From contig NZ_LJYG01000094.1 of assembly GCF_001440035.1 (NCBI RefSeq), positions 154,767-218,766 of the forward strand: 64,000 nt of DNA, written 5' to 3'. Under the pieces are notes generated by a model that saw only the letters and a program-made list of their open reading frames with translations, was not told where the DNA came from and made no database searches. This DNA comes from Bradyrhizobium manausense (GTDB taxonomy: Bacteria > Pseudomonadota > Alphaproteobacteria > Rhizobiales > Xanthobacteraceae). The translations under genes were made by a program, and so were the position numbers. Of this stretch, positions 25,159-48,346 are shown piece after piece; the first letter of the stretch is position 1, and each line of letters begins with the position of its first letter.

Positions 25159-25695
25159 TTAAGGCTGATTGTTTGGCGGCCTTTCGATGAAGCGCCGGCT
25201 GCCGTTGAGAAGTTCGAGGTTATTGGCGATGACCGGGTTGCCTGGATCGAGCGAATAAGCCTTCTCAAACTTTCGGCGCGCCGCATTCAGATTGCCGCGC
25301 AGCATGTACGAATATCCCTGGTCATTCAGGATCTGAACCGTCTCGCCTCCCAGCCGGATCGCCTGGGCGTAGGCCTGGTCGGCAAGGTCGAAACGACGGA
25401 GCTTGTCGTAGCTCGCCGCGAGCCCAATCCAGGCAGTGACGTCCTTGGGTGATTTCTCGACGGCATCCTTGAAATAGCGCTGCGAGAGTCCGTAACTGCC
25501 GCGATTGTAATGCTCCAGGCCCAGCCGCACAGGCTCGTCCGACGGGTAGTACTTGACGTCGGTCGGCTCCTGCACGGGGTCCCCGCCCGGCGGGTCAACG
25601 GGAGCCACGATGGCGGCTTCCCTCGTTGTGTAGTCGCAACCCGCAAGTCCTGGCGCCAACCAGCAACAGGTCAGCAATACAATGGCACGTCGCAT
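25159..25695 (-). CDS. tadD: Tetratricopeptide-repeat pilus lipoprotein (TadD-like)
   Basis: A 178-residue protein with a lipoprotein signal (LAPGLAGC; Cys20) and at least three TPR units from about residue 50 (LEHYNRGSYGLSQRYFKDAVEKSP; VTAWIGLAASYDKLRRFDLADQAYAQAI; ILNDQGYSYMLRGNLNAARRKFEKA). TadD lipoproteins help assemble the outer-membrane secretin of Flp pili. It is the last gene of the pilus operon, 82 bases after the small lipoprotein. Confidence 0.85.
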   Translation of the reverse strand: MRRAIVLLTCCWLAPGLAGCDYTTREAAIVAPVDPPGGDPVQEPTDVKYYPSDEPVRLGLEHYNRGSYGLSQRYFKDAVEKSPKDVTAWIGLAASYDKLRRFDLADQAYAQAIRLGGETVQILNDQGYSYMLRGNLNAARRKFEKAYSLDPGNPVIANNLELLNGSRRFIERPPNNQP

Positions 25696-25777: not shown

Positions 25778-26182
25778 CTACCTGGTCCCTGCCGCTGGCC
25801 CGCCGACCGGCACCGAGATTCCCGACGATGCTCCCGCTCCCAATCCAGTTACATTGACATTCTGGGTGACAGGAGGGCGCTGGCCCATCTGTTTCGTCGG
25901 ATCACCGTTATCAGGAAGCTGATCGATCGGCTGTTGCGAATTGCCGTAACGCGTTACGGCAGCACCCACGCGACGCGCGTCGTATGCGATCCGGCGATCG
26001 CCGACATATCGCGGCCAGGGATGGATGGTATGAGTGACGGCGTTCACCTCCTTGGCGTTGCCGGCACTCATCGTGATGGTGTCGGAACGCTGGAAGTAGC
26101 GGTCCACCTCGTCATGACCGGCGAGGCCGTAACATCCGCCGAGCAGGATGGGCGCGAACACAGCCAGGTATCTGATGATCAT
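25778..26182 (-). CDS. Small lipoprotein of the Tad locus (CpaD position)
   Basis: A 134-residue protein with a lipobox (ILLGGC; Cys17), the phrase DEVDRYFQRSDTITMSAGNA, and a conserved-looking HTIHPWPRYVGDRRIAYDARR. The C-terminal 45 residues are Gly/Pro/Val rich and low complexity. It lies 12 bases after the secretin gene, where other loci have cpaD, but is shorter than CpaD and I cannot confirm homology. Probably an outer-membrane partner of the secretin. Confidence 0.7.
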   Translation of the reverse strand: MIIRYLAVFAPILLGGCYGLAGHDEVDRYFQRSDTITMSAGNAKEVNAVTHTIHPWPRYVGDRRIAYDARRVGAAVTRYGNSQQPIDQLPDNGDPTKQMGQRPPVTQNVNVTGLGAGASSGISVPVGGPAAGTR

Positions 26183-26194
26183 CTCGCGCGTCCT

Positions 26195-27844
26195 CTAGTT
26201 GAGGGTTTTGACGACCGGCTGGTCGGCAGCAGAGGCTGGAGCCACGACGGGCGCCCTGATTTCGGGAGCGATGATATGTCCGTACGGTCCCTTCACCTCG
26301 CCACCGGAATTGACGTAGTCATCGTAGCGCTTGCGAACTTCCATCTGGCCGTTGAGGAAGAAATCGACGTCGTTAGCCGGCAGGCGCGAGTCGAGTGGCG
26401 AAGCCAATTGCTGACCGGGCGCCGCCGGCGCCACCAGGCGCGGCGTCACGATGATCACCAGATCCGTTTCTTCCTGCTGGTACGATTTGCTGCCGAACAG
26501 GGTTCCAAGTACGGGCACCGAGCCGATCCATGGCAATTGCGACACGTCCTGCCGGTTGCGCGTCTGGAGCAGGCCGGCAATTGCAAAGCTCTGGCCATCG
26601 CGTAATTCGACCGTGGTGCGGGCGTCGCGTCGGGTAAGTGCCGGCACGGTGGTGCCCTGAATGGTAATCGCATTGGTGAAATCAAGCTCGCTGACCGACG
26701 GCTCAACCCGAAGGTTGATCACGCCGCGCGAGAGCACGGTAGGGACGAAGGCGAGCTCAACACCGAACTTCTTGTAATCGATCGTGATGGTGGGAAAACC
26801 ATTAGTCGTCTGAGTCGGGATGGGAACTGGAAACTCGCCGCCGGCCAGGAAGCGGGCGGCATCGCCGGAAAGCGTGGTCAAGTTGGGCTCCGCCAGCCGG
26901 CGAGCCAATCCCTTGGTTTCCAACGCCGAAATCAACAAGTCCACCGAGCCGCCGTTGCTTGTTCGGACGATGCTGGTCAACAAGCTTCCGAACGGTATCG
27001 GAGCCACACCGCCCGCGGTGCCAATAAGGGTATTCAATGTTCCGAGTACCGGAAGACTGCCGGTCGGGGGATCGCCGACAGGTCCTCCCCCAGCACCGAG
27101 GGGACCGTTGGCGGTATTGATACCACCGATCGGAGCTCGACCGGCGCGTGTCACACCCCCCAACCCGGTATTACCGACGTTCGTGCCATTGGCATTGGCC
27201 GCATAAAGGTTCACACCGAGGTCGCGGCCAGCCTGCCTAAAGACCTCGAGAAAGCGCACCTCCAGCATCACCTGCTGCGGGGCCGCGACGCTCATTGCGT
27301 TGACGACAGTGCCTCCCTTCGCAACCGTGCTGGTGGCGATCGCCATGGCCCGCTCGGCCGTAACCGCGTCGGCCGCCGTTCCGCTGAGGACCACTTGCCC
27401 CTCGGAAGCGGAGACGCGGATCCCGTTCCCGCCAGTGCTGCTGCGGATGTTCTGCTGGAGATTACCGGTATCGATCACGACCTCGACGTCGAGAATGCCG
27501 ATCTGCTTCATCGAGGAGTCGAGCAGGATGACATTGGTGGTGCCGGTCTGCTTGCCCTGGACGTAGATCAGGTGATCGCTGAGCGACTTCACGTCGACGA
27601 TGTCAGGCGAGCCGGCCACGATGGTCGCGAAGGCCGTATCGACCTTGAACGTACGCGACTTGTTGACGACGACCTTGACCCGCTGGACGTCATTCATTTC
27701 GCTGACGAACACCCCGCCCGAGGTATTCCGCCGGTCAGCCGCAGTTGCGCGATCACCGGAATTCAACACCGTCAGCGCAGCAGCCAGGACGCTCAAGGCG
27801 AGGAGCCCTGCTCCCGTCCAACTCGAAACGCGACCGCCATCCAT
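26195..27844 (-). CDS. cpaC: Type II/Tad secretin (CpaC/RcpA)
   Basis: A 549-residue outer-membrane secretin through which the Flp pilus passes. The start at 27844 (MDGGRVSSW) is taken because a signal-peptide-like hydrophobic run follows at 9-28 and a GGGGGGAAA site precedes it; the longer frame to 27949 adds a charged non-family stretch. The N-terminal pilus/secretin domain (VNKSRTFKVDTAFATIVAGSPDIVDV) and BON-like region come first. The C-terminal secretin domain (LRVEPSVSELDF, LTRRDARTTVELRDGQSFAIAGL) ends with the SLPWIGSVPVLGTLF-type motif. A Gly/Asn/Pro-rich insert lies about 220-290. Confidence 0.92.
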   Translation of the reverse strand: MDGGRVSSWTGAGLLALSVLAAALTVLNSGDRATAADRRNTSGGVFVSEMNDVQRVKVVVNKSRTFKVDTAFATIVAGSPDIVDVKSLSDHLIYVQGKQTGTTNVILLDSSMKQIGILDVEVVIDTGNLQQNIRSSTGGNGIRVSASEGQVVLSGTAADAVTAERAMAIATSTVAKGGTVVNAMSVAAPQQVMLEVRFLEVFRQAGRDLGVNLYAANANGTNVGNTGLGGVTRAGRAPIGGINTANGPLGAGGGPVGDPPTGSLPVLGTLNTLIGTAGGVAPIPFGSLLTSIVRTSNGGSVDLLISALETKGLARRLAEPNLTTLSGDAARFLAGGEFPVPIPTQTTNGFPTITIDYKKFGVELAFVPTVLSRGVINLRVEPSVSELDFTNAITIQGTTVPALTRRDARTTVELRDGQSFAIAGLLQTRNRQDVSQLPWIGSVPVLGTLFGSKSYQQEETDLVIIVTPRLVAPAAPGQQLASPLDSRLPANDVDFFLNGQMEVRKRYDDYVNSGGEVKGPYGHIIAPEIRAPVVAPASAADQPVVKTLN

Positions 27845-28282
27845 TCCGGTTTCCCCCCGCCGCCTTCTGCAGCTGTCCCGTAAATCTACGTCCTCGGCAG
27901 CCTCACAACTCCACCTCGCGCCCATCGTAGAGTTTACGGTCTCTCCCACTACAAATCCGTTACCGTTATTTCCCGGCGCACATCAGTTGAGACGGAACCT
28001 TACCTCCCGCTCGCGCGGGACACCCCCAGCTGAGCTGCGAATGATGCGGCAGATCATCGTCCTTCATACCAACTGCGTGCAAGGAAAGACGTTTGCCGCA
28101 GTGCCGCAAGACCCGAAAAACCTTACGGATGTTGCCCCCGCGCACCACTTTTCCGTCGGTCAGGAGGTATTGCACGCAGGCGTGGAAGATCGGGTTCCGC
28201 TGCCGGCCCTTGCCCGCTGCTGCGTGGGCCACCAGACCTGATCCTGATGATCTTTGTCGGCACCGCATGCAGGCCGGCGCCG
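27845..28282 (-). other. 438-base gap inside the pilus locus
   Basis: It separates the TadE-like gene from the secretin gene. A 100-codon minus-strand frame (27966-28268) matches nothing I know and has no good ribosome site. A GC-rich hairpin (TCCCGC/GCGGGA, 28005-28020) has no T-run. The part next to cpaC is A/T richer and may hold a promoter for cpaC, the lipoprotein and tadD. Confidence 0.4.
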
Positions 28283-28702
28283 CTAAAACGGAATGCTCGT
28301 GGAGGCGCTCGGCGCGTTCAATCCCGTGCCCCAGATCGGCATCAGCATCTTAAAGTTTGCTTGGGAAGCTGTAACCGTCAAATTGTTGCTGCTGGACCCA
28401 GCGGTCATCGTCGGCGTGAGACCACCGAAATACAGGAAAGGCGCAACATTTTGCCTCTGTGGGTCAGGCAGGTAGGTATTGATATCGATACAGCCGGAGG
28501 GCGCCGTGTTGTTGGTTACGTTAGGTGTGTAGCACTTGATCATCGTTGCCCGGGCGCCGGCGCTCGCGAGCGTCCGCAAGGATTGCATGGTGATCGCATA
28601 GCGTCCGAGGTCGAAGATGGCGAATATCAATGTGAAAAACGCTATGAAGACGAGGACAAATTCGAACGCCGCGGCACCGCGATTGTCGAGCTTTCTCATC
28701 AT
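28283..28702 (-). CDS. TadE-like minor pilin
   Basis: A 139-residue TadE-family pseudopilin. The N-terminus reads MMRKLDNRGAAAFEFVLVFIAFFTLIFAIFD: a positive leader, G-A processing site, glutamate at +5 and a membrane helix. The rest is exposed, with two cysteines in a Thr/Asn/Pro-rich segment. ATGATGA at 28702 overlaps the stop of the TadG gene, so the longer frame to 28807 is rejected. Confidence 0.85.
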   Translation of the reverse strand: MMRKLDNRGAAAFEFVLVFIAFFTLIFAIFDLGRYAITMQSLRTLASAGARATMIKCYTPNVTNNTAPSGCIDINTYLPDPQRQNVAPFLYFGGLTPTMTAGSSSNNLTVTASQANFKMLMPIWGTGLNAPSASTSIPF

Positions 28703-30117
28703 CGCACCAAAGCGACAACTTGGGTGTAAGCGATAGGACCACACCCTTGCGTACTCAGGAAGCCGCCGCCGCTCATGGTGAGCGTTTTGGCGATCACCTC
28801 TGAACACGTCGTGTTCGAACTTTGAGTCCCTCCGTTCCAGGTCACGTCGACCTTTGGGAAATACGTCGCTCCCCCAAGTGCGACCGTACCACCACCGTTG
28901 ATCGTGACAGCATTCTTGGACTTCGTCGGCGCCTGATCATCGATCAAAACGCCGTTCAGATCTGACGAAAAACTGTTGGTGACGGGAGCAGAGAGAGCGA
29001 CCGTGCCACCGCTGATGGAAAGGCTCGAATCCCCCAACAACACCAGGGTTACGCCCAGACCTGTGCCAGCAGGCGGCCACTTTGTGCAGGCGTTGCAGGT
29101 GACTGTTCCGCCATTGATCTTTATTGTCGCATTGTAAAAGACGTACGTGCCGGGAGCGAAATCCAGCCAGTCCCCGGTCGTCACGCTCAGGCTTCCGTAC
29201 GCCCCCGTGGCAGGGGGAGCATTCGGGGACGCCGTAAAACAAGTCTTGGTGCCGGCGGGCGGCGCTGGCGAGGTGGGACACGATGTTAGCTTTGTTTCTG
29301 GATTGGAGCTGCCAGTCCTGCTGTTGAACGATTCGCTGTCCAGCTTGCTAAGTGGATTGGTTGCGTTCGGCATGAAATAGTTGTGCGTCACGCCAGGATT
29401 GCTACAGGTCCCTGAAGGGGTGCAGCCACTTACACCATAAATGGCCCATCCCGAACCCGTGAAAGTTGGCGTGCTGGCAAACTGAACGGTGGTGTCCGAC
29501 ATCATCCCGCAGCCAGTTCCGTTGTTGCTGAGGTTACCACCGAGCTTGAGCGCGCCCGTGTCAGGCCCGAGTGCCAACGCACACAGCTTCGTCGGGTTCT
29601 GGACCAAAGCAATGGCTTGGGCGGGGATGGTGACGGTTTTAAAACCCAGCACTGCCGCCAGGTAGGCCGGCTGTTGCTGCCTGACTATGGCGCGAACAGC
29701 ATTACCGGTGCCTGCAGGGGGCGTTGTGAACGTGCCCGCATTGGAGTCGCCGACATAATCGCCGATATCGATCTGCACGACCCGCGAGATTCCGCTCGGA
29801 AGACTCGTCGCACACCGGCTGTCGGGATAGGCCGTGTTGTCCGCTGGACTTGAGTTGCAAAACGCATTCTGTGCCGCGAATTCCTTGCCGCGATAATCCA
29901 CCGATTGTGGATCGCAGTTCGTCGCACCAGCTATCGTGCATGCAAGCCGCAAGGCGCCCGAATAGGCTGCCGCATCGGCCGCGTTCTGCGCGTTCTTCTG
30001 GGTGACGTACCACGATCCGGCCTCGGCCCCGAGCGAGACCACGCCGATGAGCGGCACGAGCGCGATGACTGTTGCAAATGCGACCGAGCCTCGTCGTGAG
30101 TGGAGCAGATCACGCAT
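28699..30117 (-). CDS. TadG-like pilus assembly protein with beta-rich C-terminal domain
   Basis: A 472-residue protein starting MRDLLHSRRGSVAFATVIALVP. The first 60 residues are a TadG-type N-terminal anchor (GAEAGSWYVTQKNAQNAADAAAYSGAL), shared by proteins of Tad loci. In place of a von Willebrand A domain, the remaining 350 residues are Gly/Ser/Thr/Asn rich with several Cys and repeated short strands (INGGTV, ISGGTV, INGGGTVALGG, MSGGGF), as in a beta-helix or stacked-strand fold. It may be a surface-exposed tip or adhesive component. The longer frame to 30342 overlaps the TadE gene and is not used. Confidence 0.8.
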   Translation of the reverse strand: MRDLLHSRRGSVAFATVIALVPLIGVVSLGAEAGSWYVTQKNAQNAADAAAYSGALRLACTIAGATNCDPQSVDYRGKEFAAQNAFCNSSPADNTAYPDSRCATSLPSGISRVVQIDIGDYVGDSNAGTFTTPPAGTGNAVRAIVRQQQPAYLAAVLGFKTVTIPAQAIALVQNPTKLCALALGPDTGALKLGGNLSNNGTGCGMMSDTTVQFASTPTFTGSGWAIYGVSGCTPSGTCSNPGVTHNYFMPNATNPLSKLDSESFNSRTGSSNPETKLTSCPTSPAPPAGTKTCFTASPNAPPATGAYGSLSVTTGDWLDFAPGTYVFYNATIKINGGTVTCNACTKWPPAGTGLGVTLVLLGDSSLSISGGTVALSAPVTNSFSSDLNGVLIDDQAPTKSKNAVTINGGGTVALGGATYFPKVDVTWNGGTQSSNTTCSEVIAKTLTMSGGGFLSTQGCGPIAYTQVVALVR

Positions 30118-30125
30118 GGAAGCAC

Positions 30126-30557
30126 CTATTGGAAGCGCTCTGAGTAAAGCAGCGTGTATGTACAACTCGTGGGACACAGCACCGGTCGCCAGACAATCGG
30201 GGACAAGGTGACCGTTGTCGTGAATGAAAAATATTTCGGGGTAGCAATATTGCTCGACGAGCAGGCAACACGTGCGTCTCCGCATATCACCTGGATGTTG
30301 CTGATCGGATAGCCGGCGACTGTTGTCTGTAGCCCCGAGCAACAGATCACCGTCCCGTCAGGTCCGAGCGGATTATGGTACTGCAAGTATTGCCCGAAGC
30401 CGCGCAGCGCCGCCCAGGCGGAGCTAAACTGCAAGCCCGCGATGGCCACCTCGGCGAGCGACATCAGCAGGAACGCCACCAGGACTGGATAGACGATCAA
30501 TGTCTCAAGCGCGACGGCACCGCGCTGATCCGCCATGAAAGACTTCTTGTGGCTCAT
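30126..30557 (-). CDS. tadE: TadE-like minor pilin
   Basis: A 143-residue TadE-type pseudopilin. The leader MSHKKSFMADQRG is followed by AVALETLIVYPVLVAFLLMSLAEVAIAG, with the TadE glutamate five residues after the probable cleavage. Cysteine pairs in the exposed part (ICCSG, CPTSC) suggest disulfides. The start at 30557 has GAGGTGGGG; a GTG three codons earlier is weaker. It is 8 bases upstream of the TadG-like gene. Confidence 0.85.
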   Translation of the reverse strand: MSHKKSFMADQRGAVALETLIVYPVLVAFLLMSLAEVAIAGLQFSSAWAALRGFGQYLQYHNPLGPDGTVICCSGLQTTVAGYPISNIQVICGDARVACSSSNIATPKYFSFTTTVTLSPIVWRPVLCPTSCTYTLLYSERFQ

Positions 30558-30613
30558 GAGCCCCACCTCGACCGATACTCACGGTTCTGGGTCGTCGACC
30601 GGATCAATAGCAC

Positions 30614-31261
30614 TCACCAAACATGCGGGATCAATCTCCAGCGCGAGGTCTCGTAACTGGAATATTCAGGACAGTTGCGTCGGAGCAGGTCCTCTTCGTA
30701 ATAAATCCGGCAAACCTGGACACCAATATGCAGGACGAGCAACGCTGCTGTCAGGGGCGTCGGATTTCTAAGCACCACACCCAAAACCGCGACTTCTTCC
30801 GCGAGGTAGAGCGGATGCTTGATCCATCGATAAGGGCCCGTTTGCACGACGTTGCGCGCCTGCGGCACCAAACTGAACGATCTGCCAAGATGTCTGATGG
30901 TGACCAGCATCATGATCATGCCGATCAGCACGCAAGCGGTGGATGCCAGGTTTGGCAACGCTTCGTCGGTCTTGCCGAAGAACGCGATCGTCCACGGCAT
31001 ATAGGTGCCGACGAACGCCGCGATCCTTGGGAGAAGACCGTCCGCCTGCGCCTTTGCTGGCGGCCGCGTGATGGTCAACAGCGCCAGCAGGACATAGAAG
31101 GTCGCAAGGCACACACTCGACAAGAGCGAGGGCCAAGGATCATGGGGCGACGAGCCAATCCTGATGGCGACGCCAAGTGCCAGCAACATGAACCACATGC
31201 CGCCGAACAGCTGCATCGTCCGATCGTAAGAGGAGGTTTTCGACAGGACAACGGTGCTCAT
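30614..31261 (-). CDS. ICMT/PEMT-family integral membrane methyltransferase
   Basis: A 215-residue polytopic protein with about five hydrophobic segments. The C-terminal half has the isoprenylcysteine-carboxyl-methyltransferase-type SAM-binding pattern: ARNVVQTGPYRWIKHPLY, then QVCRIYYEEDLLR and YSSYETSRWRLIPHVW. Members methylate lipids or protein carboxyl groups at the membrane; the substrate here is unknown. It lies 2 bases after tadC and 56 before tadE, so it is inside the pilus operon. Modification of a pilin, pilus lipid environment or a surface lipid is possible. This gene is not part of the standard Tad set. Confidence 0.8.
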   Translation of the reverse strand: MSTVVLSKTSSYDRTMQLFGGMWFMLLALGVAIRIGSSPHDPWPSLLSSVCLATFYVLLALLTITRPPAKAQADGLLPRIAAFVGTYMPWTIAFFGKTDEALPNLASTACVLIGMIMMLVTIRHLGRSFSLVPQARNVVQTGPYRWIKHPLYLAEEVAVLGVVLRNPTPLTAALLVLHIGVQVCRIYYEEDLLRRNCPEYSSYETSRWRLIPHVW

Positions 31262-31263
31262 GG

Positions 31264-32172
31264 CTATTTACCGAAGCTGGCAAACGAACGTACTAGATGC
31301 AGAATGGGGCTTCCTCCCAAGATGACGAACATGGCCGGAAGCAGGAACAGGACCATGGGAATGGTCAGCTTGGCGCCCAACTTGTGCGCTCTTTCTTCCA
31401 GCTTGGTAATGCGTTCACGCCGCAGGTCGACAGCGATGTTCCGCAGAGCCTGGCCGACTGGCGTTCCGTATTGCAGGCTTTGAGCGATCATGGTGCCGAA
31501 CCGACGAAGCCCGTCTGACGTGGATCCCAATTTCTCGAAGGCGTCGCTGCGGTTTGGCAGTATCCTGAGATCATCAAGAAGACCGTGCAACACCCGGGCT
31601 ATCGAGGGATTGGTCTCGTTCATTTCTTGCGCGACACGTGCCAGCCCGCTCTCCAGGCCCATTCCCGCTTCGCTGCACACAACCAGCAAATCGATCATAT
31701 CTGGCGTGCCCAGCCGAACAGCAGCATCAAACCGCCGCTTCAGCACCCCCAGTATCAATCGCGGCGCTACAATTCCGATCGCCAGGCCCATGAGGGTGAA
31801 GACCAACACATCCGTCGGTGCCTTTCCCGAGAGCTGAGCGGCCCCCCCGGCGATAATTGGGCACAGGAACATGCTGACGGTTTTGATACCGATCCAGGTC
31901 GGCAAGGTTCGATGATGATTGAAACCTGACGATTGAAGGATGGCTCGCAGTTGATCCAGATTTTCCTCGGCGTAGAAGCGGCGCCACCGCATGCCGAGCG
32001 ATGAAACCCAACTGGTCATGTCCTTGAAAGTTGCCGCCTCGCCGGCAATTCCCAGCACGGCGCTTGACACACGCGCGTCCAATTCGCGCAGGTGTATTTC
32101 GCGGATGATCAACAGGCTCGTCGCAGTCCCAGCTGCTATTGCGAGGGCCACCAGACCGAGACCAAACGTCAT
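31264..32172 (-). CDS. tadC: Tad inner-membrane platform protein TadC
   Basis: A 302-residue type II secretion F-domain protein. The start at 32172 (MTFGLGLVAL) overlaps the tadB stop as ATGA. Membrane segments lie near 5-22, about 90-135 and at the C-terminus (IPMVLFLLPAMFVILGGSPILH). The F-domain DMIDLLVVCSEAGMGLESGLARVA and GTMIAQSLQYGTPVGQALR are typical. With TadB it forms the platform driven by the TadA ATPase. Confidence 0.92.
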   Translation of the reverse strand: MTFGLGLVALAIAAGTATSLLIIREIHLRELDARVSSAVLGIAGEAATFKDMTSWVSSLGMRWRRFYAEENLDQLRAILQSSGFNHHRTLPTWIGIKTVSMFLCPIIAGGAAQLSGKAPTDVLVFTLMGLAIGIVAPRLILGVLKRRFDAAVRLGTPDMIDLLVVCSEAGMGLESGLARVAQEMNETNPSIARVLHGLLDDLRILPNRSDAFEKLGSTSDGLRRFGTMIAQSLQYGTPVGQALRNIAVDLRRERITKLEERAHKLGAKLTIPMVLFLLPAMFVILGGSPILHLVRSFASFGK

Positions 32173-33101
32173 AGTGTTGTTTCCCTTCTGACCATCCAAC
32201 TGATCACCACGGCTCCGACAAGCACCGAGGCGACCGCGTAAGCCAGCAGCTTGTTTCCGACTGGATCGGTGAACAACAGATCAACCGTTTGCGGATTGGC
32301 CGCGTATAGGACTCCGCCGCCGATCAAGGGCGAGACTGTCAGTGCGCGTGAGGAAAAGATCACCTCTCCCGCCAACGCCTTGGCTCGAGCAGCCAGCGCA
32401 ACACGCTGTCTCACAGTCTCTCCCAGGTTCTGTAAGGTTTCGGCCAGGCTGCCGCCGGACTTCAATTGAACTGCAAGTGTCACTGCAAACATCGCATACT
32501 CTTGGACTTGTGTTCGTCGATAGACAGCTTGGACCGCCTCCTCCGGAGGTCTCCCCAGACTCACTTCGCTGCATACGATGGCAAACTGCCCAGCCGTTGG
32601 TTCCGGCATGTCGCGCGCGAGGGCGCGAAATGCTTCGTTCACAGGCAGGCCCGTTCGAACTGTACTTGTCACCAACTGGATGGCATCCGGCAGCTGCCGA
32701 AACAGTCGAAGGGCGAAGCGACGTTGCTGCCATCCGAACAGGCCTCGCATCACGATGATGGCTACGATTGCGGCGACGATGGACGCGTAAACAAGGGGAT
32801 ATCCCAGCTGGCTATTCGCATAAAAGATTGCCGCTGCCGCGAGGGCGCCCGCAAGCAACACATAGGCCGGATGCCAGGCGTAAGGTATCTCGGGCCTGTA
32901 ATTGGCGAGGCGATAGAGAAGCAGAGACCGGGACCCAGTCTCCGAACGGCGAATGGATGGCAAGCTAGCTGGATGTGAATCCGGCAGGGAAACCGCAAGC
33001 TGGCGATCGAAGCGTCTTTCCCGAGCGTCGAGCCACAACGAAATCGCTGCTGCGCACATCGCAAGCGCCAGAACGGCGACGATCACGGACTCCGGCATCA
33101 T
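32169..33101 (-). CDS. tadB: Tad inner-membrane platform protein TadB
   Basis: A 310-residue T2SSF-domain protein: an N-terminal membrane helix, two central segments (about 80-120), the F domain (LPDAIQLVTSTVRTGLPVNEAF, LAVQLKSGGSLAETLQNLGETVR) and a C-terminal pair of helices. It overlaps both cpaF upstream and tadC downstream by four bases, so tight translational coupling is expected. Confidence 0.92.
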   Translation of the reverse strand: MMPESVIVAVLALAMCAAAISLWLDARERRFDRQLAVSLPDSHPASLPSIRRSETGSRSLLLYRLANYRPEIPYAWHPAYVLLAGALAAAAIFYANSQLGYPLVYASIVAAIVAIIVMRGLFGWQQRRFALRLFRQLPDAIQLVTSTVRTGLPVNEAFRALARDMPEPTAGQFAIVCSEVSLGRPPEEAVQAVYRRTQVQEYAMFAVTLAVQLKSGGSLAETLQNLGETVRQRVALAARAKALAGEVIFSSRALTVSPLIGGGVLYAANPQTVDLLFTDPVGNKLLAYAVASVLVGAVVISWMVRRETTL

Positions 33102-34543
33102 ATTTGCCTCATCGCCTCGGCCCAGACGCCATCCAGCCCGTAATAGACAAGACGACTCTTGAATTTCGGGGTAGCAAGGTTGGACCTATAGGTGCCGGAT
33201 AGTCGCCCATGCACATCCTCCTCCTGGTACTCGAAGGCTGCGATGTCATTGGTGGTGATCACCTCGCCCTCCAGGCCGATGACCTCGCTGATCTGAACGA
33301 TACGGCGCTGTCCGTCCCGCATCCGTTCGACCTGCACAATGAGATCCAGTGCAGCGACGATCTGAGCTCGAATGGCGCGCGACGGTAGATTGACCTGTCC
33401 CATCTGGACCATGTTTTCGATGCGGGTCAGGGCATCCCGGGTACTATTCGCGTGGACCGTGGAAATCGAACCGTCATGGCCGGTGTTCATCGCCTGCAGC
33501 ATGTCGAAAGCTTCCGCACTGCGGACCTCGCCAACGACGATCCGGTCGGGCCGCATGCGCAGGGCATTCACCAGCAGATCCCGTTGCGTCACCTGCCCTG
33601 TGCCTTCCAGACTGGGAGGCCGGGTCTCCAGGCTAATCACGTGCGGCTGCTGAAGCTGCAACTCTGCCGCATCTTCGATCGTGACAATGCGTTCGTTGTG
33701 ATCGATGAATTGACTCATCGCGTTCAAGAGCGTCGTCTTGCCGGATCCCGTACCGCCGGAAACCAGAACATTGAGCCGGGACCGGGCGGCGATCTCCAGC
33801 AGTTGTCCGATGGCCGCGGTCATTGAGCCATTTTCAATCAATCCGGCGATATCCAGGCGGCGACTTGGAAATTTCCGGATGGAGATGCACGGACTATGGA
33901 TCGCAAGCGGCGGCAGGATGATGTTGACGCGGCTGCCATCCAGCAGGCGACAATCCACCATCGGACTGGATTCGTCGACGCGCCGGCCGACCTGCGCGGC
34001 AATTTTCTGAGCGACGGAGGTGATGTGATCATTGTCGCGGAATCGCACCGCAATTCGTTCCAGCCTGCCGTTTCGCTCCACGTAAACGTTACTCGGACCG
34101 TTCACCATGATATCGCTGATCGATTGATCCAGCAGCAGCGGACGAAGCGGCCCGTAGCCCGTCATGTCGTCGGCAATCTCGTCCGCAAGCTGAAGCTGCT
34201 CGCGCCCCGACAGCTCGAGCCGTTCCTGGTTGGCGATTTGATGGATGATCTCTTCGATCTGCCGCCGAAGAACCTCGCGCGAAACGGTTGCGGCCACCGA
34301 TGGCTCGATCTGCTCAATGACCCGTTCACGCAACGAAGCCGGTATCAGCGGATGGTGGATCGGGAGTTCGTCGCGCTTGGGCGCGGATGCGAACACGTTT
34401 GAGGCGGGTGGAGGCCCGCTCGGTCCGGATGCGGCAACGTTGGGCATCGACAGAGGCGAGCCTGTCGCAGGACCAGGCAGCTCAGTCCCCAAAGCAGCTA
34501 CGAAAATGGGCGCGTCGTCATCACGCCTGCCGAACTTTTTCAT
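33098..34543 (-). CDS. cpaF: Tad pilus assembly ATPase (TadA/CpaF)
   Basis: A 481-residue VirB11-like secretion ATPase that powers Flp pilus extrusion. The disordered N-terminus (1-75) is Pro/Ala rich. The core has the Walker A VSGGTGSGKTTLLNA near 260-270, Asp box (IVTIEDAAELQL), Walker B-like RPDRIVVGEVRSAEAFDMLQAMNTGHDGS and the His box (STVHANST). The start at 34543 (MKKFGRRDDD) overlaps the cpaE stop; a longer frame to 34576 is not needed. Confidence 0.95.
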   Translation of the reverse strand: MKKFGRRDDDAPIFVAALGTELPGPATGSPLSMPNVAASGPSGPPPASNVFASAPKRDELPIHHPLIPASLRERVIEQIEPSVAATVSREVLRRQIEEIIHQIANQERLELSGREQLQLADEIADDMTGYGPLRPLLLDQSISDIMVNGPSNVYVERNGRLERIAVRFRDNDHITSVAQKIAAQVGRRVDESSPMVDCRLLDGSRVNIILPPLAIHSPCISIRKFPSRRLDIAGLIENGSMTAAIGQLLEIAARSRLNVLVSGGTGSGKTTLLNAMSQFIDHNERIVTIEDAAELQLQQPHVISLETRPPSLEGTGQVTQRDLLVNALRMRPDRIVVGEVRSAEAFDMLQAMNTGHDGSISTVHANSTRDALTRIENMVQMGQVNLPSRAIRAQIVAALDLIVQVERMRDGQRRIVQISEVIGLEGEVITTNDIAAFEYQEEDVHGRLSGTYRSNLATPKFKSRLVYYGLDGVWAEAMRQI

Positions 34544-35745
34544 CGCAGATGTGCTTTGAGCACCCTCCTCCACCATCCACTCCGCTCGGCACCGACACCG
34601 CTGATCTCCCGCACAATCGGCGCCAGGTGACGTCGCAACTTCCTGACGTGCTTCAGAGCCGGAATTCCGAGATTGACTGCCTGGGTCATCCCCTTACCCA
34701 GATCCGGAACGATCATGTCGGGTTCTGCGCCCAATGCCTTGACGACCGCCGCCCTCGGAAGGCCGCCAGGACGATCGGCCCGGTTGAGCAAGGTAAAAAC
34801 CCGGTCTTTGCCGGCGATGTTGATCACGGCGGCGCGCAGCGCGTGGGCATTGCGAAGTCCGGTCACCTCCGCTTCGAGCAGCACCATCACGTGACGGGAC
34901 AGCGTAATCACCGGGTAGATTGATGGCGGGAACGGGACCGGTACGTCGACTACGATGTAGTTGAACCGTTGGCGGAGGAGACCCAGCACGTGTCGCACGC
35001 CAGCTTCCGTGATTTCGAGCTGCGCATCGAGGTCCTCGTCGGCCGAGACCAGGCAAACGCGTTCGTTGACCTCGATTGCGGCGCGCTCGAGGAAGAGTGT
35101 GTCCGCCCGTGCCGGATTTTCCAGTGCTATGCGCAACCCCGGCCCGGGACGAACCCCCAACATCACTGCGGCCTCTCCACCCTGCAGATGAAGGTCAAGC
35201 AGCGCCACTTTGGCCTTGGTGGTCTCGGCCAGCTGCAGTGCCAGATTGATCGCGATGCTCGTGGCACCGGCGCCGCCCTGTGCGCCGCAGATCGACACCA
35301 CGTGCCCACCACGATCGATCTGGTTGGCCGCCATGTCGCCGAGTAATTTCGGGCGGAGCTGGTCCAGCACCAGATCGCGCGTGAGCGGCCGTGGCAGGTA
35401 CTCGGTCAAGCCGAGCTCCAAAAGCTCACGGTAGAAGGTGATCTCCCTGTTTTCGCCGATCAGAGCAACGCGGACATCGGGTGGACAGACCCCGGCCAGC
35501 CTTTCCAGTTCGGTGAAGGGATCATCGATGCCGCTGATGTCCGTCACCAGCGCGAACAGGTCAGTATCGGTTTCAAGCATCCGTATCGCATGGCGGATGG
35601 TACCGCGCCTGATCAAAAGGTTGGCGCCTTCGAGCCCCTTGCGCAAAGCCGCGGCGCTGATCTCGTCGTTTACGAAGCAGACGACGCGGTTACGCGTGAC
35701 GATCGATATCGATTCTTCGGGCGGAGTGGCTATGGCAATGTTCAT
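34540..35745 (-). CDS. cpaE: Pilus assembly localisation ATPase (CpaE/TadZ)
   Basis: A 401-residue MinD/ParA-like protein that positions the Tad machine. An N-terminal receiver-like domain (about 20-130; VRVALIGENREITFYRELLELGLTEYLPRPLTRD) precedes the ATPase domain. The Walker A is deviant: GAQGGAGATSIA near 152-163, lacking the usual lysines of KGGVGKT. ATG at 35745 shares one base with the cpaB stop (TGATG); a TTG just before it is unlikely. Confidence 0.92.
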   Translation of the reverse strand: MNIAIATPPEESISIVTRNRVVCFVNDEISAAALRKGLEGANLLIRRGTIRHAIRMLETDTDLFALVTDISGIDDPFTELERLAGVCPPDVRVALIGENREITFYRELLELGLTEYLPRPLTRDLVLDQLRPKLLGDMAANQIDRGGHVVSICGAQGGAGATSIAINLALQLAETTKAKVALLDLHLQGGEAAVMLGVRPGPGLRIALENPARADTLFLERAAIEVNERVCLVSADEDLDAQLEITEAGVRHVLGLLRQRFNYIVVDVPVPFPPSIYPVITLSRHVMVLLEAEVTGLRNAHALRAAVINIAGKDRVFTLLNRADRPGGLPRAAVVKALGAEPDMIVPDLGKGMTQAVNLGIPALKHVRKLRRHLAPIVREISGVGAERSGWWRRVLKAHLR

Positions 35746-36710
35746 CAACGTTTCTCCGGCAACTTGCTAACGTCACCCATAGCGGTTGCAGTCTGGCGGA
35801 CGATTCCCGACGACCCATCGCAGCTGACGAGAGCATCTTCGTCTTGCTTCCTGACCGTGTATTGCTTGACCTCTCCGCCCGAATGAATGACGATCGCCGT
35901 TCTCTGCGCTGCAATTGCATTCTGTCGAGCAAGTTCCGGCGACACATCGCAGCTGGACATCGCGCCCGTGTCCGACTTGTCCCACTGATCGACTGCCGCG
36001 CGCACGGCCAACGACAGCGTTCCGAGCTGCTTTGCGACAGTGATCTTTTTGACCTGCTCCTGTGCAAGCTCCAGTGACACGGTTTGCGATTGCTTGCCTG
36101 CCATCCCGCTAGAGGGCCGCCCGCCCTCCGCGATCTCCTGGTCAATCGCGATGACTCGAACATTGCGCAGAACGGTTTCGCTCAGCGCGCGCCGCGCGGG
36201 ATCGGCCTTCTCGAAGACCTGGGTCAGCACGACATCGACATGATCTCCCGGCCTGATCAAGCCCGAGACACCCGCCTCTTCGTCAACCTTGATGCTGATG
36301 GCGCGGCTGTCCGGTGCCAGGACACTGGCAAGGAATCCCCGATCTCGCGGACGCAGAATGTCTTGCAACGTGACAGGGCTGCCCGCTTCGACGAACCTGC
36401 GGATGAGAGAGCCGGGGAGTCCGGTCTTGGATTCGGGCGTCTCTAGGATAGCCCCCTGTGGAACGTGCTCCGGCGACACCGATCGCACGGTGAAATCTTC
36501 TTCGCGGGCCAATGTGCCCTTCGGCAAGGGATGTGCCGCGACAAAGTATCCAATGGTTGACGGCGCCGCCGGCGGTGGAGCCGTCTCTATGGCCTGTACC
36601 GGGCCCGGCGGCGGCGCCTTCGGGAGGTTCATGTTATAGGCAATCAGCCCGAACGCAGTGGTTGCGAGCAGAAGCACCATGATGATCGACAGACGCAACG
36701 CGGATGACAT
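35745..36710 (-). CDS. cpaB: Flp pilus assembly protein CpaB/RcpC
   Basis: A 321-residue periplasmic protein with an N-terminal membrane anchor (LSIIMVLLLATTAFGLIAYNM). A SAF-like domain follows (AAHPLPKGTLAREEDFTVRSV, about 55-80), then the RcpC/CpaB domain (DSRAISIKVDEEAGVSGLIRPGDHVDVVL). It is thought to act with the secretin. It lies one base from cpaA. Confidence 0.93.
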   Translation of the reverse strand: MSSALRLSIIMVLLLATTAFGLIAYNMNLPKAPPPGPVQAIETAPPPAAPSTIGYFVAAHPLPKGTLAREEDFTVRSVSPEHVPQGAILETPESKTGLPGSLIRRFVEAGSPVTLQDILRPRDRGFLASVLAPDSRAISIKVDEEAGVSGLIRPGDHVDVVLTQVFEKADPARRALSETVLRNVRVIAIDQEIAEGGRPSSGMAGKQSQTVSLELAQEQVKKITVAKQLGTLSLAVRAAVDQWDKSDTGAMSSCDVSPELARQNAIAAQRTAIVIHSGGEVKQYTVRKQDEDALVSCDGSSGIVRQTATAMGDVSKLPEKR

Positions 36711-37319: not shown

Positions 37320-37535
37320 TCAACCAGCAATGGCCGTATTGAAAGCAGTGACGATGGCGGTGATCCCGGTCGTCAGCGCTGCCCCAATCTGGCCACCAGC
37401 CCCACCACCGAACACAGCACCTACTGCGCCGACGATGCAAACGGCGACGATAATGTACTCGAACGACACCACGCCGCCCTCGTCGGCACGCAGGTGCTTC
37501 AAAGCTTCCCTGGTTACAACGTAATATCTCAACAT
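37320..37535 (-). CDS. Flp-type major pilin (copy 2)
   Basis: A 71-residue Flp pilin. The leader ends in a Gly pair and the Flp motif VVSFEYIIVAV gives cleavage G/V with Glu at +5 and Tyr at +6. The mature part is a hydrophobic Gly/Ala-rich helix ending in NTAIAG. AAGGAGG precedes the ATG. It is nearly identical in the last 50 residues to the pilin upstream, so the two are a recent tandem duplication. Confidence 0.95.
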   Translation of the reverse strand: MLRYYVVTREALKHLRADEGGVVSFEYIIVAVCIVGAVGAVFGGGAGGQIGAALTTGITAIVTAFNTAIAG

Positions 37536-37628
37536 GTGAGAACGCCTCCTTGTAAGCCCCCTCCGTCGCCAGACAAAGCCTTGCCGACGGTGGGGCGCAC
37601 TCTTTTTTTCGCTCGAACGATGGCCGTG

Positions 37629-37844
37629 TCAGCCGGCGATCGCTGTGTTGAAAGCAGTGACGATGGCGGTGATCCCGGTCGTCAGTGCTTTTCCGATCTG
37701 GCCGCCAGCGCCACCGCCGAACACGGCACCCACTGCGCCAACGATGCAAACCGCGACGATGATGTACTCGAATGACACCACGCCGTCCTGGTCCGTCCGC
37801 AGACGCTTCAAAGCTTCCTTGGTCTCGATGAAATGATGCAACAT
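37629..37844 (-). CDS. Flp-type major pilin (copy 1)
   Basis: A 71-residue Flp pilin starting MLHHFIETKEALKRL, with the same VVSFEYIIVAV processing region and C-terminus as its neighbour, differing mainly in the leader (RTDQDG for RADEGG) and IGKAL for IGAAL. It is the first gene of the pilus operon. Its ribosome site is weak compared with copy 2, so the copies may be made in different amounts. A TTG seven codons upstream is unlikely. Confidence 0.93.
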   Translation of the reverse strand: MLHHFIETKEALKRLRTDQDGVVSFEYIIVAVCIVGAVGAVFGGGAGGQIGKALTTGITAIVTAFNTAIAG

Positions 37845-38391
37845 AGGAAGAATCCCTTGTTTCAAGATGGATTTGCAGACACCTCGGCAATTTCAGCGGC
37901 TGCGGATTTATGTCCGGCCCCGCCAGCGATAAACTATCCATTAAACATTTATTATCGTCAACATTTAATGTATTAATGCCGTTCTTGAATTAACCCGTCG
38001 CGAAACTGCAAAAACGCCGTAGTAAAAGGACGTTAGTTGGTCGAATCCTGGGCAGAGCGCCGGCTGAGAAACCAAAGAATCACCGGATTAATACGGGTAA
38101 AGCGGGGGTAATAATTCGATTATTTGGACATTCGATTATTATGAATTATCGTGGTGCATCAACCTGTCAACCCACTCAGATCGGGCGGATGCTGCGACCC
38201 GTCCGGCGTGCATGGAGAGCAAAGTGCAACACATCTGCCCACCACTGGTGAGGTGATCCCTTCCGAAGATTCCAATCGCGCTGATCGCAATTCGAGCGAG
38301 ATTCGGTCAAGCCCCGCGAGATACCAGATATTCAAAATCGGCCGGATGCATTCAACGCAGCCAGCATAGCGTTGAGAGGTTGCTTGATGGG
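37845..38391 (-). promoter_or_regulatory. A/T-rich pilus-operon promoter region
   Basis: A 547-base gap between the HlyD gene and the first pilin, the most A/T-rich part of the window near 37930-38150. It contains ACATT-T-AATGT (37961-37971), the direct repeat ATTCGATTATT at 38114-38124 and 38130-38140 (16 bases start to start), and AATAAT-TCG-ATTATT around the first copy. No TTAA-N7-TTAA CtrA box with correct spacing was found. A plus-strand 72-codon frame at 38151 shows nothing recognisable. Confidence 0.5.
38352..38375 (-). terminator. Hairpin downstream of the type I secretion operon
   Basis: TCAACGC and GCGTTGA form a 7-pair stem with a 10-base loop, starting 17 bases after the HlyD stop. 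There is no T-run on the minus strand, so it could be a factor-dependent stop or 3' stabiliser and not a textbook terminator. Confidence 0.35.
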
Positions 38392-39759
38392 CTACTTCTG
38401 CCGAAACGACTGGTTGAACGACATTGCGAGTGGTCCAACGATGTATTCAAAGGCGGTTCGTTGGACCGTCGGAATCATGACGGTCGCGGGCATGCCAGGG
38501 TACAGTCGGATGTTTGGCATGCCCGCCAATTCGCGCTGATCAATCCGGACGAAGGCCGTGTAGTACGGCGCATTCGTTTTCGGATCCGTAAGGCGGTCAG
38601 CGGAGACCTGGATAACGTCGCCATGAATGATTGGCACGATGCGCTGCTTGTAGGCCGTAAGATGGACTTCGGCGCGCATATCCGGGTGCACGTCGCTGAT
38701 GTCTTCGACGGCGACCTGCGCCTCGATGGTCAGCGAGTCCTCGTCCGGAACGATGTCGAGGATCTTATCGCCGCGCTGTATGACGCCGCCCACCGAAAAC
38801 ACGTTCAAGCCCACGACGTGGCCGGTATAGGGCGCCCGGATTTCCATGCGACCGAGTACCGACTTTGCGCTCAGCGCTTTAGGAATGACTTCGAGCAATT
38901 TGGCCTGCGTGTCTCGCAAGTCCTTGGTGATATCCGTCATTCGATCATTATCGAGTTGGGCGATCTGCTGCTCCTGCTCGGCGATCGCCTGCCTTGCTTT
39001 GGCAATGTTGGCATTGGTATCGGCAATCTGTCCATCTAGACCGTACGCAGTCCGCTCCAATTGGAGGATGCGCGGGCGCGCGATCAGGCCCCGCTCCACC
39101 AAGGGCGCAATATCCTTCGACTCGCTGCGGACGGAGTTGATCTGATCAGTAAACGACTTGACCTGCGCCTCCGCACCGAGGATCTGCGACCGAAGCTGGT
39201 TGATCTTCTCGCGAATGACGCTTCTTTGCCCTTCCAGTGATGCCCGTCGGCTTTCGAACTGGCTAATTTGACCGTTCCAGACACTCCTGAAATACGGATC
39301 GTCCGAGCGCGCCTTCAGGTCCAACGGCATGTTGAGATCGGACCTATGATCCAGCTCCGTCAGGAGCCGGACTTCCGTCGCACGAAGCACGGCGTACTGC
39401 TGGCTGAGCACCTCATATTCGGCGCGCGCCTGGGTTTCGTCGAGAACGATCAGGAGATCGCCGGCAAGCACCCGCTCGCCTTCTCTGACATGCAGTTCCT
39501 TGACGATGCCGCCATCCAGGTGCTGGACGCTCTTGCGGTTGCCATCGACCTTCACGACTGCGTTGGCGACCACAGCGCCGTTCAGCGGCGCGGTTAGCGC
39601 CCAGGTGCCGATGCCGCCGAAAAAGCTCGCGATGATCAGCCATCCGGCGAACGCCACATAGCGGATGGAATCGAGCGGCGCATTGTCATTCTCACGTCTC
39701 ACCCAGCTCGGAGCCGGAGCGGGTCGTTCCGTTTTAAGCGCAAAATCCGACAGCGCCAT
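38392..39759 (-). CDS. Type I secretion periplasmic adaptor (HlyD family)
   Basis: A 455-residue membrane fusion protein. It has a cytoplasmic N-terminus (1-35), a membrane helix (VAFAGWLIIASFFGGIGTWAL), a biotinyl-lipoyl-like half (NRKSVQHLDGGIVKELHVREGE), long coiled coils (about 130-280) and the second lipoyl half with the HlyD beta-barrel (IRAPYTGHVVGLNVFSVGGVI). It bridges the ABC exporter to an outer-membrane channel. AGGAG lies before the ATG, and the exporter stop is 10 bases upstream. No TolC-like gene is in the window. Confidence 0.93.
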   Translation of the reverse strand: MALSDFALKTERPAPAPSWVRRENDNAPLDSIRYVAFAGWLIIASFFGGIGTWALTAPLNGAVVANAVVKVDGNRKSVQHLDGGIVKELHVREGERVLAGDLLIVLDETQARAEYEVLSQQYAVLRATEVRLLTELDHRSDLNMPLDLKARSDDPYFRSVWNGQISQFESRRASLEGQRSVIREKINQLRSQILGAEAQVKSFTDQINSVRSESKDIAPLVERGLIARPRILQLERTAYGLDGQIADTNANIAKARQAIAEQEQQIAQLDNDRMTDITKDLRDTQAKLLEVIPKALSAKSVLGRMEIRAPYTGHVVGLNVFSVGGVIQRGDKILDIVPDEDSLTIEAQVAVEDISDVHPDMRAEVHLTAYKQRIVPIIHGDVIQVSADRLTDPKTNAPYYTAFVRIDQRELAGMPNIRLYPGMPATVMIPTVQRTAFEYIVGPLAMSFNQSFRQK

Positions 39760-39769
39760 CTGTAGTCTC

Positions 39770-41500: not shown

Positions 41501-41566
41501 TCGACTTCATTGAGAAGACCCAAAGCATTGCAGCAACCGACTCCTACTGGCCTCGAGTCATACCGC

Positions 41567-47239: not shown

Positions 47240-48346
47240 AACTAAAATCCTCGAGCTAATGATCCGAATAAATCGCAAATGGCGCAGTGATGGTCGGCCA
47301 CCACGTCGTTCCTATTCCGGAAGAAAATGCCGTGTCGTTGAGGAGTGCTCGCGATCATGGCAGCGAACTCAATCAGTGGCACTCGGAACTGGCGCTATCT
47401 CGCCCGGCGCGATGTCTTGGCGCGGTCGTCGCGGCTCGACAGAACCAAGCGGCGGTGTTGAGCGTCGGGCCGTGCACGAAGGCTCGCAAGTCGTTCGCTA
47501 CGACTCGCTCGAGCGAAGGATCGCAATTGGACAAAGGAGAATACGAGATGGCCTCGGAACGCGCTTCGACTTGAGACCAGTCGAATGTTGGCTCGGACTG
47601 CCACATAAAATGCACGCAACTCATTTACGTCCCTCGTCTGCGAGTGCAGAGCAAGGAGGTTCTGCAGGATCAATTCACGCAAAGCACGAGCGCTCGGACG
47701 GACGAACCACGTCACCTCCGCCCACAAGCAACTATCGCCTGTCTGCTAAGCTATGCGAAAAGGATCCTCGGCCCCCCTGCCGCCCGTGTCCGGCCCGCGG
47801 TCGGGACACGCACTCATGGTTCTTGTCATCAAATACTTTCGCCTCTTCGGCTCTGAGGACTGACGCAGCGATGAGGAGCGGTCATATCCCGCGGCCTGGA
47901 GCGAATTAAATCTGCCTTAGATTTCCATCTCCGTCCATTTAATTTTAAATGTCAACTGATTTAAGAATTAACGCCACTAAATCCACTAAAAAGACACGCC
48001 GACGTCCAGTGAAGAGACGTCTCGCGGAAAGAAGACTCGAAAATTTCTCATTGGGGCCGTGCTTTTACGGGGTTTGTTGATGCGCGAGCGCCACGGACCA
48101 TGTCGGCAGGCCGGAGAAACGCGTCCGCTAAAGCCCGATCCGGCTCCGGGCGAGGCTATTTCTAATTTAATCTTCAAAATAATTTTGTCGCTTGAGCGCC
48201 AGCGCTATCATAGACGCCGAAACCTGAATGTCGGCCCGCCGATGCAGGGGGCGTACGTTGCGCGCGGAGCGACTGCAGCGAGTCGCTCACCCCACGTCGC
48301 ACAATCGAAAGAACGCGCCACGATCGTGGACTATGGCGGGCAGAAC
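47240..48346. promoter_or_regulatory. Gene-poor upstream region of the adhesin with palindromes
   Basis: About 1.1 kb without a gene I can support; the open frames of 60-110 codons on both strands show no family pattern. Around 47900-48000 it is A/T rich and has two perfect inverted repeats: AAATCT-5-AGATTT (47908-47924) and CATTTAA-2-TTAAATG (47936-47951). These are plausible operator sites for the minus-strand adhesin/secretion operon, though about 670 bases from its start. Confidence 0.4.
48267..48288. other. Strong hairpin downstream of the hypothetical gene
   Basis: GAGCGACT and AGTCGCTC form a perfect 8-pair stem with a 6-base loop, about 60 bases past the stop of the gene at 48347. 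No T-run follows on the minus strand, so its role (factor-dependent terminator or protein site) is open. Confidence 0.4.

Follow-up and report, generated by a model that had tools for sequence, protein, structure and literature searches.

Tad pili are widespread machines for adhesion and surface sensing. Within a Tad operon of Bradyrhizobium manausense lies a gene for a predicted membrane methyltransferase of the ICMT family, and a few described systems offer points of comparison. The first is RhlM of Paraburkholderia, an enzyme of the same family which, according to passages of its description, methylates the carboxylate of rhamnolipids; H122 and E162 of RhlM contact SAM in a model, certain of its homologues are encoded near a fatty acid hydroxylase, and its authors call it the first characterized bacterial member of this enzyme class (PMC11069360). 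The second is bcam0694 of Burkholderia cenocepacia, an ICMT-family gene beside the gene for a collagen-like adhesin, on which, in excerpts of the report, the authors suggest that the enzyme possibly acts (PMC10224339). The third is the N-methyltransferase domain of PilD (PF06750). With regard to pilin methylation, passages of two papers state that the Tad peptidase TadV is without a methylase and that the function of this modification has puzzled the field for over 40 years (PMC10191384), and that its role is not known (PMC4471445).

In Bradyrhizobium itself, a 2026 Tad study reports, in the sections covered, a second complete Tad cluster in Bradyrhizobium diazoefficiens that occurs sporadically across the genus (PMC12918737). 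Tad cluster 3 of strain USDA 110, as presented in those sections, is probably of the same operon type as the one described here; the word methyltransferase is absent from the main text of that study, and the gene may be drawn in its Fig. 1B. In the passages covered of this and four other papers (PMC10191384, PMC4471445, PMC4322843 and PMC2928729), methyltransferase and methylation, where mentioned at all, refer either to an rRNA enzyme or to a domain of the PilD type. Across the main texts and passages searched in the open-licence PMC literature, no paper was found that links Tad loci with an ICMT-family enzyme, nor one that joins Tad pili with a fatty acid hydroxylase, and the comparison suggests a standard Tad locus to which a recurrent accessory enzyme, from a superfamily already known but apparently undescribed in this role in that literature, has been added.

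The window, i.e., the whole stretch of 64,000 nucleotides of B. manausense DNA that was analyzed, contains a complete, standard Tad/Flp (type IVc) gene set on the minus strand, in the order flp, flp, cpaA, cpaB, cpaE, cpaF, tadB, tadC, the ICMT gene, tadE-like, tadG, tadE, cpaC, cpaD and tadD (Table 1). All of flp, cpaA, cpaB, cpaC, cpaF, tadB, tadC, tadE and tadG are thus represented, flp by its sequence only. The first-pass annotation had given the ICMT gene its right coordinates, leaving the strand unstated, and its description of a gene located two bases after tadC, and between tadC and tadE in an otherwise standard pilus operon, is accurate: the TAG stop codon of tadC is followed by CC and then by the ATG of an open reading frame of 215 amino acids plus stop. 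Given this 2-nt spacing, translational coupling of the two genes is likely. The same annotation was correct in describing CpaA/TadV as short and devoid of a methylase domain. The PilD methylase domain PF06750 has no Pfam match in either CpaA or the ICMT protein and is absent from the whole 9.1-Mb genome at E<=0.001, a search in which 8 of 14 control genomes were positive. Next to the Tad operon, at positions 38392-47278, the window also holds genes resembling those of type I secretion (HlyD-type and ABC-transporter) along with a gene for a repetitive protein of 1903 amino acids, perhaps a secreted adhesin.

Table 1. Features of the Tad operon in the window, with coordinates as window positions
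Feature	Coordinates	Strand	Basis and remarks
flp pilin 1, inferred mature N-terminus VVSFEY	37629..37865	-	sequence/comparison only
flp pilin 2, inferred mature N-terminus VVSFEY	37320..37535	-	sequence/comparison only
cpaA/tadV prepilin peptidase, 171 aa	36712..37227	-	Pfam: Peptidase_A24 only, 3.7e-19
cpaB/rcpC	35745..36710	-	TIGR03177, 7.8e-66
cpaE/tadZ	34540..35748	-	ParA/AAA_31 slightly below cut-off, and position
cpaF/tadA extension ATPase	33098..34576	-	Pfam T2SSE, 5.4e-65
tadB	32169..33101	-	Pfam T2SSF, 1.7e-16
tadC, T2SSF platform protein	31264..32199	-	Pfam; stop 2 nt before ICMT start
ICMT/PEMT-family integral membrane methyltransferase	30614..31261	-	Pfam, AlphaFold model, structural match
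SAM-site motif GPYRWIKHPLY, codons 142-152, H149 invariant	30806..30838	-	alignment; correspondence to RhlM H122 by spacing/motif
SAM-site EE pair, codons 189-190, invariant	30692..30697	-	alignment; correspondence to RhlM E162 by spacing/motif
tadE-like minor pilin, directly after ICMT gene	30126..30566	-	position and sequence; no Pfam/NCBIfam match; neighbour conserved in genus
tadG-like	28699..30342	-	Pfam Tad 1.1e-9, Tad_C 2.8e-7; mechanical ORF, true start probably further in
tadE	28283..28807	-	Pfam TadE, 9.6e-10
cpaC/rcpA secretin	26195..27949	-	secretin models, best 6.2e-36, all under equivalog cut-offs
cpaD	25778..26182	-	position and sequence only
tadD, TPR protein	25159..25695	-	Pfam TPR

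The 215-aa protein exceeds the curated Pfam cut-offs of both PEMT (E=1.6e-9; 38.6 bits versus 25) and ICMT (E=2.1e-9; 38.1 bits versus 24), while its score of 33.6 bits against NF040696, the NCBIfam equivalog for true isoprenylcysteine methyltransferase, lies far under the cut-off of 160. The earlier assignment to the ICMT family consequently holds at the level of the superfamily, and ICMT activity proper is not implied. An AlphaFold model of the protein (mean pLDDT 89.4, pTM 0.85) found its best structural match by VIA-align in Ma-ICMT (PDB 4a2n; rmsd 2.9 over 174 residues, Z 14.9). A sterol reductase came next, then eukaryotic ICMT and after it steroid reductases, with the first unrelated structure at a Z of only 6.9. 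Foldseek by itself placed eukaryotic ICMT at the top, at E 1.7e-3, with no match reaching E 0.001. The model shares its fold (Z 12.7 and 11.6 for eukaryotic ICMT 5v7p and 5vg9, respectively) and its SAM-site motif with Ma-ICMT and eukaryotic ICMT, although identity in the structural alignments is only 16-17%.

The SAM-binding pattern, which had been reported as intact, proved to be so in the alignment: H149, E189 and E190 are invariant in 65 sequences, i.e., the window's protein and 64 of the best 80 of at least 486 GTDB relatives. H149 and E189 are separated by 40 residues, which equals the distance between H122 and E162 as given in the RhlM passages, so that the two bacterial ICMT-family membrane enzymes have identical spacing of the SAM-contacting His and Glu, a correspondence drawn from spacing and motif. 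RhlM differs in being encoded in a rhamnolipid cluster, whereas the gene in the window has Tad genes on both sides. Similarly, bcam0694 resembles it as an ICMT-family gene adjoining a surface-attachment gene, but belongs to no pilus locus, the words 'Tad pilus' occurring solely in the reference list of PMC10224339 in the parts of that paper covered. By its family and predicted fold the gene product is a SAM-dependent membrane methyltransferase of the ICMT/PEMT superfamily, and family, fold and SAM site together point to a reaction class in which a methyl group would be transferred to an amphiphile at the membrane-cytosol interface. Among characterized relatives, ICMT and RhlM methylate carboxylates and PEMT an amine.

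In named Bradyrhizobium records, the identity of the ortholog reaches 90%. Among 195 Bradyrhizobium genomes, the window's own included, 72 match the ICMT protein at E<=1e-10, and 54 of these possess an ortholog at an identity of at least 64%, separated by a clear gap from the remaining matches, all of which are at 38% or below. The insertion is thus not restricted to one strain, which excludes one of the outcomes that the first-pass annotation had named as refuting its proposal; moreover, relatives occur near Tad genes elsewhere (see below). The ortholog lies directly 3' of tadC in all 54 genomes (30/30 and 24/24) and is followed by tadE in 50 of them, while in the other four, where the tadE probe gave no match, the next gene detected was tadG. 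A search with tadC in the same 195 genomes identified 78 operons of the window's type at an identity of at least 67%, among which 24 are without the ICMT gene and proceed from tadC to tadE or, in two cases where the tadE probe missed, to tadG. Two further orthologs from an order-wide search bring the comparison to 56 operons with the gene versus 24 without, and in 56/56 loci the gap between the tadC stop and the ICMT gene is 2 to 45 nt. On a tree of CpaF, TadB and TadC from these 80 operons, presence or absence of the gene takes 6 changes on the best tree as compared to 20.9 in shuffles, and at least four of the six are forced by supported branches.

The gene is under strong purifying selection, with a median dN/dS of 0.112 in 15 hand-picked close pairs, near that of the ATPase gene cpaF (0.101, 15 pairs) and below those of tadC (0.154, 14 pairs) and cpaA (0.191, 15 pairs); the medians for tadE and tadG are 0.247 (15 pairs) and 0.381 (7 pairs), respectively. 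The ICMT gene is a real, conserved and optional part of this operon type. A plasmid search for the gene returned eight records, every one below 60% identity.

Some Bradyrhizobium loci depart from the common arrangement. For example, L075 and L135 (genome G150) have no ICMT gene between tadC and tadE, and upstream of flp a pair of almost identical ICMT paralogs, accompanied by an FA_hydroxylase and a large multi-TM protein without a Pfam match. A paralog at 36-39% identity (L069 and L070) is not Tad-linked, and the products flanking it look caspase-like by eye. Furthermore, a tadC of the window's operon type carries one internal stop in G095 (TAG), G080 (TAG) and G158 (TGA), which are possibly decaying copies or assembly errors.

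With the Bradyrhizobium copies alone as query, 397 genomes of the order yielded no ortholog outside Bradyrhizobium and only 12 homologues there at 25-36% identity, and 398 genomes of the phylum yielded three more. Four of these 15 are Tad-linked: three come from a single genus, in which the ICMT gene follows cpaA, and the other from G910, in which an inverted ICMT gene stands between tadC and tadG; a further relative (L203) has a secretin-like frame alone beside it and was left out of the linked count. In the family of G910, the gene is found in 8 of 24 genomes and is Tad-linked in three of the eight, the other five having no Tad gene in the flanking DNA, two of them on short contigs or at contig ends. 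In the family of G328, it is present in 5 of 151 genomes at E<=1e-20. In G1016 the ICMT gene heads the series cpaF-tadB-tadC-tadD-cpaA, while no Tad genes were found within about 9 kb of the gene in G1086 and G1094.

From a GTDB-wide scan, the best 80 of at least 486 confirmed relatives were taken, corresponding to 34 Bradyrhizobium and 46 other loci. Among the former, 24 are Tad-linked, with both tadC and tadE, and the other 10 have no such genes nearby. Among the 46 others, 16 have at least two Tad core genes within 10 kb and three more are weaker cases, a count that represents an upper view, given that the query alignment held Tad-linked members and relatives were ranked by likeness to one of them; in four of the 16 (L242, L245, L253 and L265) the distance to the closest Tad gene is 2.4 to 6.2 kb. 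At a limit of 1.5 kb, 15/46 have a Tad gene, whereas no Tad gene was found in 27/46, of which 21 have at least 3 kb of sequence on both sides. As a control, the ICMT-family genes of ten genomes, each picked for a linked copy, were considered: of 36 PF04140 matches, 30 were cut out, of which 11 belong to the subfamily, seven of these having a match to flp or a Tad gene no more than about 1.5 kb away, while none of the 19 outside the subfamily stands beside Tad genes at that distance, one TPR-only match not being counted as Tad.

The linked lineages comprise Mesorhizobium, Rhodoblastus, Rhodospirillales, a Caulobacteraceae MAG and a Pyrinomonadaceae MAG (Acidobacteriota, with MAG contamination possible), and the position of the gene in their Tad loci usually differs from the Bradyrhizobium slot. 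In the family tree, the Bradyrhizobium slot copies form one clade, which joins L251, where the ICMT gene is beside tadE, and L303, with the order tadE-tadE-ICMT-tadG, at a support of 98/90. A wider group of 21 rows, Tad-linked in 20, has weak support (84/88) under a midpoint root, and the Tad label takes 11 changes on the tree as a whole. Several junctions look like those of operons, to judge from their sequence: in L303 a tadG frame opens at the ICMT stop, its exact start being unsure; in L239 tadC is followed by the ICMT gene, whose stop abuts a hydroxylase frame; and in L271 the ICMT stop and the likely start of the following cpaA are 8 nt apart. In three MAGs, a MarR-like regulator was also noted close to the Tad and ICMT genes (by Pfam in L251, by eye in L303 and L271). 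The Tad-ICMT association recurs in several lineages, inside or near Tad loci.

A second recurrent neighbour is a fatty-acid-hydroxylase. A PF04116 FA_hydroxylase is present in 11 of the 46 non-Bradyrhizobium loci among the best 80 of at least 486, as detected with a profile built from five sequences, three of which come from those 46 loci, and in eight of the 11 the two frames overlap or are one. In Fuscibacter oryzae (L258:9005-10561), a single open frame of 519 residues combines an FA_hydroxylase (about 24-273) with an ICMT domain (326-497); no Tad gene was seen near this locus, and the fusion is a possible Rosetta stone for what the ICMT subfamily works with. The hydroxylases fall into two subfamilies, one (A or B) with the Rhodospirillales and Caulobacteraceae copies and the other with those of Mesorhizobium and Rhodobacter. 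Within the window's operon type, a hydroxylase lies in the flanking DNA of 5/56 operons with the ICMT gene versus 0/24 without it. Among the 195 Bradyrhizobium genomes, subfamily A was detected in 21 at E<=1e-40, of which 17 have the ICMT ortholog, and subfamily B in 27, of which 21 are at an identity of at least 73% and 18 of those 21 have the ortholog; all of these 17 and 18 genomes belong to a single clade of 21 rows in the operon tree. At E<=1e-40 both subfamilies are absent from the window's genome, for which the data therefore do not show a shared lipid pathway, and a partner hydroxylase that would be obligatory in Bradyrhizobium, a possibility also considered, is not supported given this absence and the confinement mostly to one clade. 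Several relatives of the ICMT gene adjoin an FA_hydroxylase gene and a single one is fused to it; the pairing and the fusion suggest a lipid substrate.

The reading tentatively preferred here, to which just under an even chance is assigned, is that of a Tad-associated SAM-dependent membrane methyltransferase of the ICMT superfamily, which would act on the polar head of a membrane amphiphile and so tune the membrane or surface for the Tad machine. The enzyme would work on the cytoplasmic side of the inner membrane during assembly of the pilus machine, and the methyl group would most likely go to a carboxylate, hydroxyl or amine of a lipid or isoprenoid, a compound that in many relatives may be the product of the partner fatty-acid-hydroxylase/sterol-desaturase. 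The methylated lipid would then tune the membrane or surface where the Tad machine works, and the enzyme would be dispensable for the operon type, as is consistent with the 24 operons without it. As substrate, a membrane lipid is more likely than pilin, at about one half for the former and about a quarter for the latter. The suggestion in the first-pass annotation that a lipid near the machine is modified accordingly fits somewhat better than its pilin proposal with regard to the hydroxylase neighbours and the one fusion, but is weakened by the lack of both hydroxylase subfamilies in the window's genome.

That pilin proposal, as a rival reading, holds that the ICMT protein is a stand-alone N-methyltransferase which, once CpaA has removed the leader, would modify the alpha-amine of cleaved Flp and/or TadE/TadG, in trans, in the manner of the PilD domain. 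It would thereby share with PilD the reaction and the type IV pilus context, yet the two belong to different families, PF06750, with its four-Cys zinc site, having no match in the ICMT protein, CpaA or the genome. The setting is suggestive, in that the gene sits among pilin and platform genes, no methylase domain is available in CpaA or elsewhere in the genome as PF06750, and in L238, L243, L246, L271 and L311 no more than 150 nt separate the ICMT gene from the cpaA frame; cpaA is, however, often at the cluster edge, so this adjacency may be an edge effect. The chemistry would also allow it, as the cleaved N-terminus would be an amine on a hydrophobic helix at the cytoplasmic face, and PEMT, of the same superfamily, methylates an amine. 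Cleavage of the prepilin on the cytoplasmic side is stated in a passage of PMC4471445.

The pilins themselves do not bear this out. The inferred mature N-terminus is VVSFEY in 85/86 pilins of loci with the gene and in 41/45 of loci without it, where the G|xxxxE site served to infer mature pilins and the letters FEY to select them, which left just the first three residues free to vary; an FEY-type pilin was found in 55/56 loci with the gene and none in L095. No N-terminus co-varying with the ICMT gene was thus seen. One column of the pilin body is Gly/Ala in 96% of loci with the gene versus 12.5% of those without, but this best column does not follow the gene once ancestry is taken into account: the tree gives four supported independent pairs (median sign-test p 1), in a test where fewer than six differing pairs could not reach 0.05. 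As a separate observation, a cysteine in the hydrophobic helix of Flp (window 37320-37865 and related loci) is found in 86/86 pilins of loci with the gene and 39/45 of those without, the losses occurring in 6/24 loci, five of which are in one clade. A C-terminal carboxyl methylation of the pilin, by analogy with ICMT, was set aside by reasoning, because the pilin C-terminus is outside while SAM is inside.

Nothing in these comparisons shows a pilin to be the substrate: the N-termini do not co-vary, 24 operons of the same type have no such gene, and ICMT relatives pair with a lipid-type hydroxylase. A pilin N-methyltransferase is possible, although rather unlikely, and it is slightly more doubtful still that some Tad pili have their Flp, TadE or TadG methylated at the membrane by a trans-acting ICMT-family enzyme, which would be a convergent substitute, unrelated to PilD, for the N-methylase missing from Tad prepilin peptidases and would form a one-gene switch between operons of one type.

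Alternatively, a lipid enzyme may merely travel with Tad loci in surface-colonization islands and have no mechanistic connection with the pilus. Such co-travel would account for the positions and orientations that differ among lineages, including the inverted gene between tadC and tadG in L189, for the many relatives away from Tad genes, and for islands that are shared with a hydroxylase and, in L073 and L075, with large multi-TM proteins without a Pfam match. The same in-operon slot in 54/54 orthologs speaks against it. In the family of G910, tadC is found in 18/24 genomes, namely in 7/8 with the ICMT gene, the single exception being a genome that is 63% complete, but also in 11/16 without it, so that this co-occurrence weighs only weakly against co-travel. 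On balance, co-travel without any functional link appears unlikely. Least probable is that the protein has the ICMT fold without catalysis and serves as a structural subunit of the Tad platform, for which the precedent is AtTam46, the top PDB match by sequence (E 9.5e-8), one chain in the Ycf2-FtsHi motor complex of Arabidopsis (8xku) that has an ICMT-like fold (Z 10.9) within a membrane machine, but it is a plant protein with no pilus, the invariance of the SAM-site residues in 65 sequences would be unexpected without catalysis, and 24 operons of the same type manage without the gene.

A recurrent and selected methyltransferase in or beside Tad loci hints at a modification that is apparently undescribed. 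If its substrate is a lipid, the locus would represent a membrane lipid modification tied to the pilus machine; if it is a pilin, Bradyrhizobium gives a natural presence/absence series in which to test the role of methylation. In either case, a second substrate for the enzyme class to which RhlM belongs, as that class is presented in the passages of PMC11069360, would help to understand the class.
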